64,000 nt of DNA, taken from contig CAIQPR010000013.1 in the NCBI GenBank assembly GCA_903873775.1, positions 1 to 64,000 of the forward strand, in the 5' to 3' direction. Numbering within the stretch: position 1 is the stretch's first letter; each line of letters opens with the position of its first letter. The position numbers were made by a program, and so were the translations under genes. The DNA comes from an uncultured Actinomycetes bacterium (lineage in GTDB: Bacteria; Actinomycetota; Acidimicrobiia; Acidimicrobiales; RAAP-2). Shown one piece after another: positions 5,541 to 11,738 of the stretch. The notes beneath the pieces were generated by a model. The model did not search any database. It saw only the letters and a program-made list of their open reading frames with translations, and was not told the origin of the DNA.

Positions 5541-5897
5541 GTGAGTGTGGATCTCGATCACGTGCAATTAGCCATACCTCCCGGCGGTGAAGCCGCCGCC
5601 GATGAGTTCTACGTGGGGTTCCTCGGCCTCGCCGTGCTCGACAAGCCCCCCGCGCTCGCCGCTCGCGGGGGCCGGTGGTACGCGACGGGCACTCTGCAGA
5701 TTCATTTGGGCGTCGACCGGGACTTTCGACCCGCGCGCAAGGCCCACCCCGCATTTCGGGTGCGGGACTTTGACGCCCTACGCCACGCGTTCCTCGCTGC
5801 GGACATTGACGTACGCGACGACACGGAGATTGAGGGCGTGGACCGCTTCTACGTGGATGATCCGTTTGGCAATCGCGTGGAACTGATTCGCGGCTAG
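5541..5897 (+). CDS. VOC (glyoxalase/bleomycin resistance) family protein
   Basis: LDHVQLAIPPGGEAAADEFYVGFLGLAVLDKP ... FYVDDPFGNRVELIRG typical VOC ends; GTG start at 5541 in frame with longer ORF 5085. Confidence 0.85.
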   Translation: MSVDLDHVQLAIPPGGEAAADEFYVGFLGLAVLDKPPALAARGGRWYATGTLQIHLGVDRDFRPARKAHPAFRVRDFDALRHAFLAADIDVRDDTEIEGVDRFYVDDPFGNRVELIRG

Positions 5898-6136
5898 TTC
5901 GTGTTCGCGATGCGTTCGATCCACAACGCTTGACGCGGGCACCCTCGCACGGCGAGGTTCGCCGAGGCGAGAGAGGCGTCGCGTCGGGCGTCCAGGGGTG
6001 CGTCTTTGATGATGGGGTATCCCCACTCGTCGACGTCCACGATGTCGGGTGCCAGCTCGGCGCAGTGACCGAATCCGTCACACAGGATCGGGTCCACGCG
6101 CAGAAAGAGTTTTTCGTGTCGCCGTTTCATTCCCAC
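5894..6136 (-). CDS. Ferredoxin (single-cluster, 3Fe-4S/4Fe-4S type)
   Basis: LRVDPILCDGFGHCAELAPDIV ... LAVRGCPRQAL. Confidence 0.88.
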   Translation of the reverse strand: MGMKRRHEKLFLRVDPILCDGFGHCAELAPDIVDVDEWGYPIIKDAPLDARRDASLASANLAVRGCPRQALWIERIANTN

Positions 6137-7398
6137 ACCAAGTCATTCTCGAGTTCGAGGCGAGGAACCGTGGCGAATCGCGAACGTCCCGCGTACGCGC
6201 AGGGTTGACCCGCCGCGTGGCGGTGAGCGTCGGCCGCAAAGACCTGGAGGGCGGAACGTAGCAGTCGCACGACGCCGTCGGGGTGGCGACACCCGCCGCG
6301 ACCCTCGATGACGTCACTGCGTTCCGACATGCGCGTGAGCGCCGCCGCCGCGTCGCGACCCCCGGTGACGAGTTGGGCGAGATCCTCGGCGAGTGCCGGG
6401 AGACCGAAGGCGCACGGTCCACACTGGCGAGCCGATTCGTGCGCCATCCAGCGGACGATGTTGTGGGTTTCGGTGATGCCGCACGCGGCGCGCGGTATGA
6501 CGACGATGACGCCCGCGCCGACCGAGGCGCCGAGAGGCCGCAGTACTTCGTTGGCCATGGGCGTGGAGAGATGTTCGGCGCTCAGGAAGCTGCCGCCGTA
6601 TCCGCCGAGGAGCACCGCCTGGGGATCGGTGTCGGCCCGCGCGGCTGCCAAGACCTCCGCGAGTGGTGTGCCGAGCGCAATTTCGAGCACGACCGGTCGC
6701 GTCACCGCTCCCGACACCGAGACCACCATTGAACCCGGACTCTGGGCGGTGCCGATGGAGCGGAACCATTCGGCACCCCAGCGGGTGATGAGGCCCACGT
6801 GAGCGTGGGTTTCGGCGTTGTCGACGAGGACGGGCGCGCGACCAATCCGCAAGATGCTGGGGCGCTGTGGTCGGTACTGGGGCAGAGTCTCGTTGTCGTC
6901 CAGCCAGTGGACGAGTGCCGACTCTTCGCCGGCAATGTAACGACCGGGAGGTGTGTGGATCTCCACAACCACACCGAGGGACCCGCGTCGCTCTCTCTCG
7001 CGCAAGGCACGCTCGAAGTGATTGACCATGGAGGCCTTTTCGCGGGCCACGCAGAGCGCGATGTGGCTCGCACCAATGGCCGTCGCGAGCGAGAGGGCAC
7101 CGTCGAGAACCAGGTGGGGATTGCTCTGGGCGATCGTCGCGTCCTTGTGCGAGGCCGGCTCTCCCTCCATGGCGTTGACGACCACAAACTTCTTGCGAGC
7201 GTGCTGATCACGCAGCAGGCGAGCCTTCGTCGCCGTGGGGAAGGCGGCGCCACCGCGACCGGTCAATCCCGCGCGATCGAGCTCGTCGAGCAAGTCGCGA
7301 CGAGGACGCCACTGTCCCCACATCGCCTCGTGTTGGGCGAGCGTCAGGGGACGGTCCGTGGCTCCCTGCAGGACGCGCGGGAGGACGGGGGCGCTCAT
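6127..7398 (-). CDS. NuoF-like NADH/FMN-binding oxidoreductase (51 kDa subunit family)
   Basis: AGLTGRGGAAFPTATK (FMN), VVNAMEGEPASHKD, SLBB-like SVSGAVTRPVVLEI, ESARQCGPCAFG and GGCRHPDG Cys motifs; start MSAPVL at 7398. Confidence 0.87.
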   Translation of the reverse strand: MSAPVLPRVLQGATDRPLTLAQHEAMWGQWRPRRDLLDELDRAGLTGRGGAAFPTATKARLLRDQHARKKFVVVNAMEGEPASHKDATIAQSNPHLVLDGALSLATAIGASHIALCVAREKASMVNHFERALRERERRGSLGVVVEIHTPPGRYIAGEESALVHWLDDNETLPQYRPQRPSILRIGRAPVLVDNAETHAHVGLITRWGAEWFRSIGTAQSPGSMVVSVSGAVTRPVVLEIALGTPLAEVLAAARADTDPQAVLLGGYGGSFLSAEHLSTPMANEVLRPLGASVGAGVIVVIPRAACGITETHNIVRWMAHESARQCGPCAFGLPALAEDLAQLVTGGRDAAAALTRMSERSDVIEGRGGCRHPDGVVRLLRSALQVFAADAHRHAAGQPCAYAGRSRFATVPRLELENDLVWE

Positions 7399-8075
7399 CG
7401 ACGGCCTCGGGGGCGGGGAGCCGGTGGCGGTGTGCGACGAGGTGGCTCGCTGCGGGGCACAGACGTCCGCGCCTTGGCGGGTGTGGCCGGTGCCGTCTGC
7501 GCCCGCGACAGAGGTGAATGGGCCGTGCGACCGGCGGCGCGATCGGGACGCTGCGTAATGCGCCAGAGACCCGCGGCGATCGCGACGACGAGGCAGGCGA
7601 CCTGCACCACAATCATCCACAGACGGTGCGCGTCAGAACCCACGGTGAACCCGTGCAGCAGAGCGGCCGCAAGGCTGAGCCAGCTGAGGTAGTGGATGTA
7701 GCGCCACGTGGCGTTGCGGAGACGGTCCTTGACCATGCTCGACACCCACACGGCCAGCATGAGGTCAATGGCGATAGTGCCAACCGCCACCGGCAGACGT
7801 CGGTAGTCCGACGTGAAGGGCACGAGGGCGGAAAAGACGCCGATCGGGACGTAGGAATCAACAACGGTCGTAAGCACGTGGATAGCGACGAACAACATCG
7901 TGATCATGGAAATGGAGCGGTGAATCTCGTTGATCTCAAAGCGCCCCACCGCGCGACCGCCCACGCGTGTGGCCACCATCGTGCCGAGCGTGACGGTGGC
8001 GGTGAGCAGGACGAGGGCCACCACTCCCGTCGCGCGAGACGTGTACCAGAGGTAGGGCGTCGTGAAGGCAATCAC
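7395..8075 (-). CDS. Ferric reductase-like transmembrane domain protein
   Basis: Multiple TM helices with spaced His (INEIHRSISMITMLFVAIHVLTTVVDSY; WRYIHYLSWLSLAAALLHGFTVGSDAHRLWM); overlaps apbE stop. Confidence 0.85.
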   Translation of the reverse strand: MIAFTTPYLWYTSRATGVVALVLLTATVTLGTMVATRVGGRAVGRFEINEIHRSISMITMLFVAIHVLTTVVDSYVPIGVFSALVPFTSDYRRLPVAVGTIAIDLMLAVWVSSMVKDRLRNATWRYIHYLSWLSLAAALLHGFTVGSDAHRLWMIVVQVACLVVAIAAGLWRITQRPDRAAGRTAHSPLSRAQTAPATPAKARTSVPRSEPPRRTPPPAPRPRGRR

Positions 8076-8971
8076 GCGGCCACCTCGGAACGATCCCAGC
8101 CCCCGACGAACTCCACGCGGCCGTCCTCGTGGACCAGCCGGGCCGCGTGACCAGCCTGCGCGATGTGGTACGCCGCCATGTCATCCCACACCAAGGCGGC
8201 GGTGGCGAAGGCGTTCGCGGTAACGCAATTGGGTGCCGCGACAGTCGCCACGGCGAGCGATCCGTGGACGCACTCTCCGCTCCGGGGGTCGATGATGTGA
8301 TTGACCGTGTCGTCACCGCTACGCCACACGCGGGTGGACCGTGACGACGTCGCGACGCCGCCGCCCGAGAGGGTGATGCGAGGTTCCTTGCCGGTAATCG
8401 TGAGTGAGGTGGCGAGTCCGATCACGAACGGTCCCGTCGGTCCTTCGCCGTGCACGGCGACGTCGCCGCCAACTTCCACGAGGACGCCGCCTGACGGGGC
8501 GAGTTCGCTCACGAGGATGTCGCAAAGAATCGCCTTGGCGGTCGCTCCAAAGTCGAGACGAACCCCCGGCGGGAGAGTCAGTAGGCCCTCGGGACCACGT
8601 TGAATGGCCGCCACGCCGGCAGCGGGCGAAGGCGTGGCGCCGCCACGACTGCCGTCGCGGGCCAGCTCGTCGTAATCGCGGTCATATCCGAGGGCTTCGA
8701 GGGCCGGAAGAATCGTGGGATCGCAGAGGCCGTCAGTGATCTGGGAGGCGTAGGTCGCCGCGGAAAAAACCATGTCAAACGTGGACGACATCGCGACGTC
8801 GGTCCATTCTCCCCGGTTGCGCCGGGAGAGTTCGGAAGTCGAAATAAAGCGGTTGACGGTGCCGTCGAACTCTTCGAGCCAGTGGGCGAGTCGCTCTCGC
8901 GCGAAGGGTTCGGCATCCGGGTCTGCCGTGGCGATCGTGCCACTCATGCCCCAGGTGGAAAAGGTGAACAT
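8072..8971 (-). CDS. apbE: FAD:protein FMN transferase
   Basis: STWGMSGTIATA, FDGTVNRFISTSELSRRN, LDFGATAKAILCD, VEVGGDVAVHG, NHIIDPRSGE motifs. Confidence 0.92.
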   Translation of the reverse strand: MFTFSTWGMSGTIATADPDAEPFARERLAHWLEEFDGTVNRFISTSELSRRNRGEWTDVAMSSTFDMVFSAATYASQITDGLCDPTILPALEALGYDRDYDELARDGSRGGATPSPAAGVAAIQRGPEGLLTLPPGVRLDFGATAKAILCDILVSELAPSGGVLVEVGGDVAVHGEGPTGPFVIGLATSLTITGKEPRITLSGGGVATSSRSTRVWRSGDDTVNHIIDPRSGECVHGSLAVATVAAPNCVTANAFATAALVWDDMAAYHIAQAGHAARLVHEDGRVEFVGGWDRSEVAA

Positions 8972-8972
8972 C

Positions 8973-9389
8973 TCAGTTGCAGGTAAGCGTGCCGGAAGGT
9001 GAGGTGTAACACGTCGTCGTGGTGGTCACGGGCACCGTCGTGGTCGTCGTGGTGGTGGGCGCAACCGTGGTGGTTGTCGTACCGCCACCGGTGCCGCCGC
9101 CCGTACCACCGCCCGTGGATCCGCCCGTGGAACCTCCACCCGAGCTCCCACCGGAGTTGCCGCCACTGGTCGTGGTTGTTGGGGTCGTGGTGGTCACGGG
9201 CACCGTGGTGGACGTGGTCGACGGCACCGTGGTGCTCGGCACGGCGTGCGCGGTGGCGGCGACATTGCTGGCGTAGGCGACGAGTCCGCCGGCGGACGCC
9301 ACCGAGATCACGAATGTCGCTTGCGTGACGCGGCGCACGCGGGTGAGTCGGCGGTCGCGTTCCTCAGTTGTGCGATTGATCCTTGACAT
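8973..9389 (-). CDS. Exported Thr/Ser/Gly-rich low-complexity protein
   Basis: TM segment FVISVASAGGLVAYASNVAATA followed by Thr-rich and GGSTGGSTGGG tract and terminal CYTSPSGTLTC; RBS AAAGGAG before ATG at 9389. Confidence 0.75.
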   Translation of the reverse strand: MSRINRTTEERDRRLTRVRRVTQATFVISVASAGGLVAYASNVAATAHAVPSTTVPSTTSTTVPVTTTTPTTTTSGGNSGGSSGGGSTGGSTGGGTGGGTGGGTTTTTVAPTTTTTTTVPVTTTTTCYTSPSGTLTCN

Positions 9390-9459
9390 GCGGACTCCTT
9401 TCACTGTCTAGTTTGCTGGCAAAGTGTGAACGTCGCGTCGTTGTTGCCTAAGAAAGCGC

Positions 9460-10821
9460 TTAATTTTCGGGAACGGTCCCTGGCAGCGTCAGGGAAAAGA
9501 TGGCGCCGCCGAGAGCGGCCGAACGCCCCACGGTCACGGTGCCACCCATCTCGTCGGCGACTTGTCGAACAATGGCGAGTCCCAATCCCGACCCGGGGAG
9601 AGCCCTCGAGCTCGCCGAACGCCAGAATCGGTCGAAGACAAACGGCTCGTCCTCGGCGGCCACGCCGGGTCCGTCGTCTTCGACCGTGAGTACACCGCCC
9701 GTCAGCGTCACGACCACGTGGCCGTTTTCGGGGGCGAACTTGATGGCGTTGTTGATCAAGTTATTGATCGCGCGTGTCAAGCGGTCCCGGCGACCTTCGA
9801 CCTCAAAGGGTGTCAGGGTGGCGTCCAGGGTGATGCCTCGCGTACGCCCGTGCGTGCGGGCGATGGTGACGCATTCATCCGTGAGGTCGTCCAGTCGAAC
9901 CGGTTCGGTGACCCCATCGATGCCCTCACCCCGGGCGAGTTCACCGAGGTCGGTAATGAGTGAGGCGAGTTCGTCGACCTGAGTGATCATGTCCGTCGTG
10001 ATCTGCCCCAACTCCTCGGTTGTCAGACGGTCGGCGTGGGCGAGCACTTGGGCGTTGGTGCGCAGTGAGGTGAGCGGGGTGCGCAACTCGTGGCTCGCGT
10101 CCAGCACCAATTGCCTCTGCAGACGTTGGGAGGAGTCGACCGAGGTCAGAAGTTGGTTGAACACGCGGCGCAATCGTCCAAGTTCGTCGTTGCGTCCTTC
10201 CTCCAAACGGTGGGCCACGTTGGACGTGGTGGCGACGCCTTCGATCTCGTTGGTCACGTCCTCGAGCGGACCCAGAGCCGCGGTGGCGGCCAAGTAGCCG
10301 AGGAGGATGGCGAGAAACACACCGAGAAGCGCGAGAACGAGCAGCGTGTAACCGAGAAGATGAAGTTGGTGCTGCTGGCCAGTGATATTGACACTGAAGA
10401 CCTGTGCGGCATTCGTGCGCAGCACGCACGGCGTTCCCCCGCACTGCAAGGTGGTGCCGGCCGGGACGGGCACAATCAACTCCCGGTACGCGTAGCCCTT
10501 CACGTAAATCGTCCGCGTCGTGGTGGGCGCCTTCAGGTTGGCCACCTTGAGCACCGTGGCGTCGACGGGCAGATCCGCGTCGGGGTACGCGGTGCCGTTG
10601 GCGAGGACGAGTTGGAAGGACACTCCCGCCACACTCTCGCCCTGACCGGGTTGATTCTGACCGGTGTCGCCGCGAGGTCCCTGCGAGGCGGCGACGAGCG
10701 ATTCGTCAACCGAACGCAGGAGGGCGTTGCGCGTGCTGAAGAATGACGCCGTGCACGCGAGAAGCACCGCGAGAGCGACCGCGACAGTCGTCGTGATGAT
10801 GAGGCGAGTGCGGAATGTCAC
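9460..10821 (-). CDS. HAMP-domain sensor histidine kinase (MprB-like)
   Basis: Two TM helices, LVLDASHELRTPLTSLRTNAQVL H-box, NNLINNAIKFAP N-box, VEDDGPGV, GSGLGLAIVRQV. Confidence 0.93.
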   Translation of the reverse strand: MTFRTRLIITTTVAVALAVLLACTASFFSTRNALLRSVDESLVAASQGPRGDTGQNQPGQGESVAGVSFQLVLANGTAYPDADLPVDATVLKVANLKAPTTTRTIYVKGYAYRELIVPVPAGTTLQCGGTPCVLRTNAAQVFSVNITGQQHQLHLLGYTLLVLALLGVFLAILLGYLAATAALGPLEDVTNEIEGVATTSNVAHRLEEGRNDELGRLRRVFNQLLTSVDSSQRLQRQLVLDASHELRTPLTSLRTNAQVLAHADRLTTEELGQITTDMITQVDELASLITDLGELARGEGIDGVTEPVRLDDLTDECVTIARTHGRTRGITLDATLTPFEVEGRRDRLTRAINNLINNAIKFAPENGHVVVTLTGGVLTVEDDGPGVAAEDEPFVFDRFWRSASSRALPGSGLGLAIVRQVADEMGGTVTVGRSAALGGAIFSLTLPGTVPEN

Positions 10822-11519
10822 GACGGACGCAGCGCGTAGCCCACTCCGCGCACCGTCTGCAGGAGACGCGGCTCACCATTTTCTTCCAGCTTGCGACGTA
10901 GGTAGCCGACGTAGACGGCGAGGGAGTTGGTGCCGGAGTCGAAGTTGTAGCCCCACACCAGGTCGAGAATCTGGTCGCGCGTCAGAACTTGTCGCGGGTG
11001 GTTCAAGAAGAGCTCCAGCAAATCAAACTCGATACGCGTCAGCTCGATCGCCCGATCACCGCGGGTGACGTCGCGCGTCTGGGGGTTGAGGGTGAGGTCC
11101 TCGAACCGCAGGACGGTCTCGTCCCCGTCCACGAAAGTTCGACGACGGAGCAGGGCCCGCAGGCGAGCGAGGAGTTCGGCGAGGTCGAAGGGCTTGACCA
11201 GATAATCATCGGCGCCGGCGTCGAGACCTTCAACACGGTCGTTCACCGCGTCGCGCGCGGTGAGCATGAGAATCGGGGTGGCGTCCCCGGCGCGCCGGAT
11301 CCGGCGGCAGATCTCGAGACCGTCGAGGTCGGGGAGTTGCAGGTCGAGCACGATGGCGTCCGGCGCGCGTAGTTGAACTGCCCGCAGGGCGCTGGACCCG
11401 TCTTCAAAGAGCTCGACGTCGTAGTTCTCCATGCGCAGCGCCCGACCCAGGGCCGAGCGAATCGCCGGATCGTCGTCGACGATCGCGACGTAGGAGTTAG
11501 ATGCGGACGATTGCGACAC
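10818..11519 (-). CDS. OmpR-family response regulator (MprA-like)
   Basis: VAIVDDDPAIRSALGRAL receiver, DAIVLDLQLPDLDGLE, winged helix VLTRDQILDLVWGYNFDSGTNSLAVYVGYLRRKLE. Confidence 0.94.
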   Translation of the reverse strand: MSQSSASNSYVAIVDDDPAIRSALGRALRMENYDVELFEDGSSALRAVQLRAPDAIVLDLQLPDLDGLEICRRIRRAGDATPILMLTARDAVNDRVEGLDAGADDYLVKPFDLAELLARLRALLRRRTFVDGDETVLRFEDLTLNPQTRDVTRGDRAIELTRIEFDLLELFLNHPRQVLTRDQILDLVWGYNFDSGTNSLAVYVGYLRRKLEENGEPRLLQTVRGVGYALRPS

Positions 11520-11629: not shown

Positions 11630-11702
11630 TGGCGAGTAGTTCAACCGGCAGAACAGCGGACTTTGGATCCGAAGGTTGGAGGTTCGAGCCCTCCCTCGCC
11701 AG
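11630..11702 (+). tRNA. tRNA-Gln (anticodon TTG)
   Basis: Acceptor TGGCGAG/CTCGCCA, anticodon loop CTTTGGA (TTG), T-loop TTCGAGC, discriminator G; 3' CCA not encoded. Confidence 0.93.
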
Positions 11703-11738
11703 CTCGTGTTCGTCACGGCGTCCCGGTAACGTGGCGCC

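Follow-up and report, generated by a model that had tools for sequence, protein, structure and literature searches.

A conserved actinobacterial operon couples an ApbE-type flavin transferase to a disordered membrane stalk, a candidate new class of flavinylation substrate

The stretch analyzed here (the window; positions 1 to 64,000 of contig CAIQPR010000013.1, 64,000 nucleotides from an uncultured Acidimicrobiales bacterium) encodes at 5894-11519 seven minus-strand genes in the order RR-HK-X-ApbE-FRD-NuoF-Fd: a response regulator (RR), a histidine kinase (HK), a small exported protein that we call X, an ApbE-type transferase of flavin mononucleotide (FMN), a ferric-reductase-domain (FRD) membrane protein, a NuoF-like protein, and a ferredoxin (Fd). 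Sequence comparisons confirm the operon, which is conserved and looks functional; it varies the theme of MsrQ-like flavinylation-associated systems and has revealed a candidate new class of ApbE substrate. Its oddity, which escaped the original prediction, is that no known substrate of its ApbE was found and that a low-complexity exported protein fills the substrate slot. With a probability of roughly 0.55, we favor the reading that the operon encodes an outward electron-transfer chain leading to X, and that X is flavinylated near its C-terminus by a cytosolic ApbE, replacing an FMN_bind protein.

All seven genes lie where the original prediction had placed them and have the identities it assigned, with Pfam matches for every gene except X. 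Its statement that they mostly overlap by 4 nucleotides is fair, as four junctions do so (RR/HK, ApbE/FRD, FRD/NuoF, and NuoF/Fd, with the ferredoxin read from the ATG at 6130), while the gap between HK and X is 70 nucleotides and the X stop codon is spaced 1 nucleotide from apbE. A scan of GTDB contigs yielded 80 loci, mostly from Acidimicrobiaceae and actinobacterial metagenome-assembled genomes, with palsa, bog, and fen samples among the isolate names. In the gene-neighborhood comparison suggested earlier as a check, the set recurs together in 80/80 loci, far above chance, with the operon order kept as far as the contigs reach and the same flanks in nearly all. Within the genus, nearly all operon carriers share the order glmU, hydrolase, RR, HK, X, ApbE, FRD, NuoF, Fd, ispE, ksgA, and in a sister genus the same operon occupies the same place in two genomes (L190 and L191). 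The reported location between ispE and glmU is thus nearly always kept, but its description as an insertion into a housekeeping block is misleading: the shared place in genus and sister genus indicates an old, vertically inherited operon and rules out a recent insertion or mobile origin.

A chain from reduced nicotinamide adenine dinucleotide (NADH) through the NuoF-like protein and ferredoxin to a two-heme FRD is well supported by the predicted cofactor sites. The NuoF-like protein has intact FMN and NAD motifs and retains C326, C329, and C370, while the first Cys of the N3 cluster is replaced by Ala in 75/80 and by Ser in four. At 220 bits, versus a NuoF equivalog cut-off of 559, and with one of the four N3 cysteines missing, it does not classify as a complex I NuoF; the better Complex1_51K match of this genome is at C28. 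In the ferredoxin, C19, C25, and C66 are invariant, and C-x5-C, found in 78/78, forms part of the C-x5-C...CP pattern of single-cluster ferredoxins. FRD, a membrane protein of family PF01794, has two bis-His heme sites, as in MsrQ-like proteins; its ligands H52, H66, H128, and H141 are invariant in the alignment, and both His pairs occur in 74/76. Because FRD lacks a fused flavin/NAD domain, the NuoF-like protein and ferredoxin are probably its reductase. The path proposed originally, from NADH through the NuoF-like protein, Fe-S, and heme b to the outside, agrees with these motifs and with the conserved operon; its outward direction is what we infer. The FRD+NuoF+Fd combination is also found in other parts of the phylum, and some of the genomes that have it encode no ApbE in its vicinity. 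Two such loci in large-genome actinobacteria (L193 and L196; 7–9 Mb) have a fused NuoF-like protein and ferredoxin and a long, Pro-rich or Arg-rich FRD tail, and neither ApbE nor a stalk was found nearby.

No FMN_bind protein was found in the window's genome (G000, 91% complete) or in eight congeners that keep the operon's ApbE, three of which are 96–97% complete. A separate second ApbE is present in 16/16 congeners with FMN_bind versus 0/9 genomes without it (p = 5e-7 if genomes are independent), which indicates that the operon's ApbE is independent of FMN_bind. Congener loci L070-L076 are of this second, conventional type, with FMN_bind and ApbE, Thr-rich linkers, and [ST]GA[ST]YTS. Searches for NqrB/RnfD in the nine FMN_bind-less genomes, for DUF2271 and DUF3570 in 16 congeners, and for the FMN_bind-type motif [ST]GA[ST]Y in 20 loci of the NuoF type from across the phylum found none. 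In the cluster itself, where MsrQ-like systems typically have one, neither FMN_bind nor another known ApbE substrate was found; Flavodoxin_4 and FMN_red were not searched genome-wide. FRD was rejected as the flavinylated protein, there being no [ST]GA[ST] in its alignment. These results bear on the alternative that this is a plain MsrQ-like flavinylation system, with its FMN_bind protein encoded elsewhere or hidden in assembly gaps and X serving as an accessory cell-wall or O-glycosylated spacer. Published clusters with MsrQ-like and NuoF-like proteins do typically include FMN_bind (PMC8238504), and the genome is incomplete. However, more complete congeners also lack FMN_bind, which where present has its own ApbE locus, and its motif is missing from the NuoF-type loci, so we judge this alternative improbable.

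X has no Pfam or NCBIfam match. Seventy X proteins aligned from 69 loci share an Arg-rich N-terminal helix, which contains a single membrane segment, and a C-terminal tail. Both are conserved, and a variable Thr/Ser/Pro/Gly linker joins them; mean column identity is 0.66 for the N-terminus, 0.35 for the linker, and 0.68 for the tail. The tail follows C-x-[ST]-[STA]-[PA]-S-G-x3-5-C-x-COOH in 70/70, one protein having extra residues. AlphaFold2 (AF2) predicts a helix at residues 8-47, disorder at 48-120, and a terminal beta-hairpin (strands 127-129 and 135-137; block confidence, pLDDT, about 78) in which Cys127 and Cys137 sit in paired strands. In relatives, the distance from the X stop to apbE is mostly 1-14 nucleotides. 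We ruled out X as a degenerate FMN_bind protein, as it has neither an FMN_bind match nor a tail in common with the proteins of the type-A loci, L070-L076.

For comparison, we assembled a set of NuoF-type loci outside the genus (n = 34), drawn from further families in the order and the phylum. There the slot before apbE encodes a membrane-anchored Ser/Thr/Pro/Ala-rich stalk, and 25/34 stalks contain [ST]G[AG][ST] within their last 14 residues, compared with a mean of 1.7 and a maximum of 6 over 2000 trials of tail shuffling. The canonical [ST]GA[ST] accounts for 8/34 (e.g. ..SATGAS-COOH and ..HATTGASVVVP) and SGGS/TGGS-like tags for 17; the sister-genus stalks of L190/L191 end in SGGS/TGGS. Among FRD loci with ApbE, 26/41 have a tagged stalk. 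In experiments, ApbE flavinylates short motif tags placed at the ends of proteins (reviewed in PMC12052999), and the tagged stalks are likely flavinylated by ApbE as well, whereas flavinylation of the window's X is uncertain. We tentatively propose, as a possibility rather than the expected outcome, that domainless membrane-tethered stalks bearing FMN, as a swinging electron carrier, on a C-terminal [ST]G[AG][ST] constitute an unrecognized class of ApbE substrate, with the genus hairpin as a non-canonical flavinylation site. A search for further tagged stalks in G000, G012, G015, and G018, with a pattern requiring three NCN codons before the tag, matched short, mostly out-of-frame open reading frames. 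At L087 (L034) and L190, the stalk gene is present in two tandem copies 5' of apbE.

The operon's ApbE has an AF2 model with a pLDDT of 91.6, for which the Foldseek matches are solved ApbE/FmnB structures. Ser209, His225, Lys146, Asn253, and Thr257 are invariant in 71/71, and the first two correspond to Ser241 and His257 of Vibrio cholerae ApbE. In the ApbE tree, the window's clade (100/100) is nested among ApbEs of the SGGS type and joined to those of L190/L191 at 96/86. With no folded domain to cross the membrane, a tagged disordered tail would fit a cytosolic ApbE, which could use cytosolic flavin adenine dinucleotide (FAD) before export; we offer this as a rationale, not as evidence.

Several observations weigh against flavinylation of X and of the stalks. 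Many of the 34 stalks come from related genomes and are not independent, so that the shuffling contrast overstates their independence, although their linkers differ; nine of the 34 have no tag, and tagged stalks also occur at 2/11 FRD loci without a local ApbE. The window's X lacks a canonical [ST]GA[ST] (its tail reads PSGTLTC, with Leu at the acceptor position), and only 35/70 relatives have Thr at the position expected to bear FMN. Hydropathy, with a maximum of 0.15 over the first 60 residues, gives no sign of a signal peptide in the operon's ApbE, so any modification would have to precede export. The catalytic Asp of V. cholerae ApbE (Asp285) corresponds to Asn253 in 71/71, and Glu occupies this position in ApbEs beside most TGAS stalks. 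Asn is also found there with SGGS stalks, which indicates that the Asp-to-Asn change arose before the hairpin.

This Asn would suit a different role for ApbE, as a flavin-binding or FAD-hydrolyzing (Ftp-like) protein that supplies FMN while NuoF-Fd-FRD reduces free flavin or iron directly; Ftp of Treponema pallidum combines pyrophosphatase and transferase activities (PMC4767422). However, the ApbE is cytosolic, the aromatic residue that stacks on FAD in non-hydrolyzing ApbEs (Tyr60 in Escherichia coli, Phe42 here by alignment) is kept in 71/71, and tag-like tails beside the same ApbE clade would be left unexplained. We regard such a role as very improbable.

Another alternative, which we consider doubtful, is that flavinylation of X has been lost in this genus: the terminal disulfide hairpin of X would be the redox element or a structural cap, electrons would pass to a thiol/disulfide or directly to a soluble acceptor, and ApbE would be kept for another protein. 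The two Cys of X are invariant while the canonical acceptor residue varies, AF2 pairs both of their strands, and a close Cys pair recurs in the HK sensor of 53/64 relatives. On the other hand, the active-site residues of ApbE are invariant and its gene is tightly coupled to X, neither a further known substrate family nor a stalk with a similar tag turned up in the searches made, and the sister genus has the SGGS tag at the same locus.

According to the flavinylation reading, the operon product would be an inducible outward transmembrane electron-transfer chain. The NuoF-like protein, with FMN and one Fe-S cluster, would oxidize NADH and pass electrons to the small ferredoxin and, through the two FRD hemes, across the membrane. 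The extracytosolic acceptor would be X, a disordered anchored stalk standing in for the FMN_bind protein of classical systems, to which the cytosolic ApbE would attach FMN near the C-terminus before or during export. X, its redox group flexibly tethered, could then reduce an external acceptor such as Fe(III) or a quinone-like or disulfide compound. In other Acidimicrobiales, the C-terminal [ST]G[AG][ST] tag would be the acceptor site. It may have become the Cys-bracketed hairpin in the window's genus, where the redox group of X would be either a flavin on another hydroxyl or a disulfide that took over the redox role.

The RR and HK domains found by Pfam in adjacent genes identify a two-component system, which would govern expression of the operon; the HAMP match of HK, at 21.1 bits, is slightly below the cut-off of 25. 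The Cys pair in the HK sensor (C-x4-7-C; CGGTPC in the window, 9460-10821) is missing in 11 of the 64 relatives and suggests redox or metal sensing.

Table 1. Genes of the operon and the C-terminal hairpin of X, with window coordinates
Feature	Position	Strand	Evidence and remarks
RR, OmpR-type response regulator	10818..11519	-	Response_reg 2e-34, Trans_reg_C 1e-26; 80-90% identity in congeners
HK, sensor histidine kinase	9460..10821	-	Two transmembrane segments, HAMP-like, HisKA + HATPase_c; extracytosolic sensor with CGGTPC
X, membrane-anchored tail-out Thr/Gly-rich stalk	8973..9389	-	138 residues from ATG at 9389
Cys-bracketed hairpin at X C-terminus, CYTSPSGTLTCN	8976..9011	-	Residues 127-138
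ApbE-type FAD:protein FMN transferase	8072..8971	-	ApbE 1.4e-35; without signal peptide
FRD, ferric-reductase-domain (MsrQ-like) membrane protein	7395..8075	-	Ferric_reduct 7e-8, above cut-off; Pro-rich tail in the cytosol; two b hemes predicted
NuoF-like NADH/FMN/Fe-S protein	6127..7398	-	Complex1_51K 1e-33, NADH_4Fe-4S 6e-14; three of four N3 cysteines
Single-cluster ferredoxin, CDGFGHC...CP, three Cys	5894..6130	-	Fer4_15 4e-6, above cut-off

Upstream of the operon are a tRNA-Gln (11630-11703), a GyrI-like gene, an alpha/beta hydrolase, and glmU; downstream are a VOC/glyoxalase-like gene, ispE, and ksgA. The final 4 nucleotides of the ferredoxin gene (5894-5897) are shared with the convergent VOC/glyoxalase-like gene. 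In many other families, FRD (L054, L187, L236-L245, L260, L261, L264, and L266-L268) contains an added extracytosolic Thr/Ser linker and beta-rich domain of about 150 residues, which is not found in the window's FRD and might be where the stalk tag docks. A 434-residue exported protein encoded directly before apbE in the second cluster of G032 (L054, 2278-3582) looks, by eye, like a phosphodiester glycosidase.

In a 2021 survey, about 4% of genomes had apbE but no known substrate (PMC8238504), and tagged stalks, if they are indeed flavinylated, would explain some of these orphans. A disordered, exportable tail bearing a short tag would then be the simplest known flavin carrier, one that would escape domain-based surveys, and the stalks would offer natural C-terminal flavin tags for comparison with engineered ones.

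The nearest known systems are the MsrQ-like clusters of Meheust et al. (eLife, 2021; PMC8238504), 31 of which contain a NuoF-like protein, typically with FMN_bind. The combination of NuoF-like protein, ferric reductase, and ApbE, considered non-standard in the original prediction, has therefore been published; what sets this operon apart is a stalk instead of a known substrate. The filter of that survey, which demanded that ApbE, FMN_bind, DUF2271, or DUF3570 carry a signal peptide or lipidation site, would skip this operon, whose ApbE, judged by hydropathy only, has no signal peptide. As in those actinobacterial systems, a PF01794 two-heme protein is combined with ApbE and a NuoF-like cytosolic donor, but no FMN_bind, DUF2271, DUF3570, or NqrB was found here, and a disordered stalk occupies the substrate slot. 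X resembles actinobacterial FMN_bind proteins (PF04205), including those of L070-L076, in its N-terminal anchor, Thr/Ser-rich linker, and gene position beside apbE, but ends after the linker, with a 12-residue hairpin in place of the FMN_bind domain. The NuoF-like protein shares the FMN/NADH fold and NADH_4Fe-4S domain of complex I NuoF and HndC-HydB, and differs in its FRD-Fd context and missing first N3 Cys. FRD has the bis-heme core of NOX, STEAP, and MsrQ proteins; unlike them, it has no fused FAD/NAD domain, its predicted reductase being the NuoF-like protein and ferredoxin in trans. ApbE is known to recognize D-x-x-[ST]-G-A-[ST], and a terminal position suits engineered tags best (PMC12052999). 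The stalks are similar to such tags and to flavinylated FMN_red tails in presenting a short motif at a terminus or on an unstructured C-terminal extension (PMC12052999; PMC11334425); the known tags, however, are engineered or attached to a folded flavoprotein, whereas the stalks have no folded domain.

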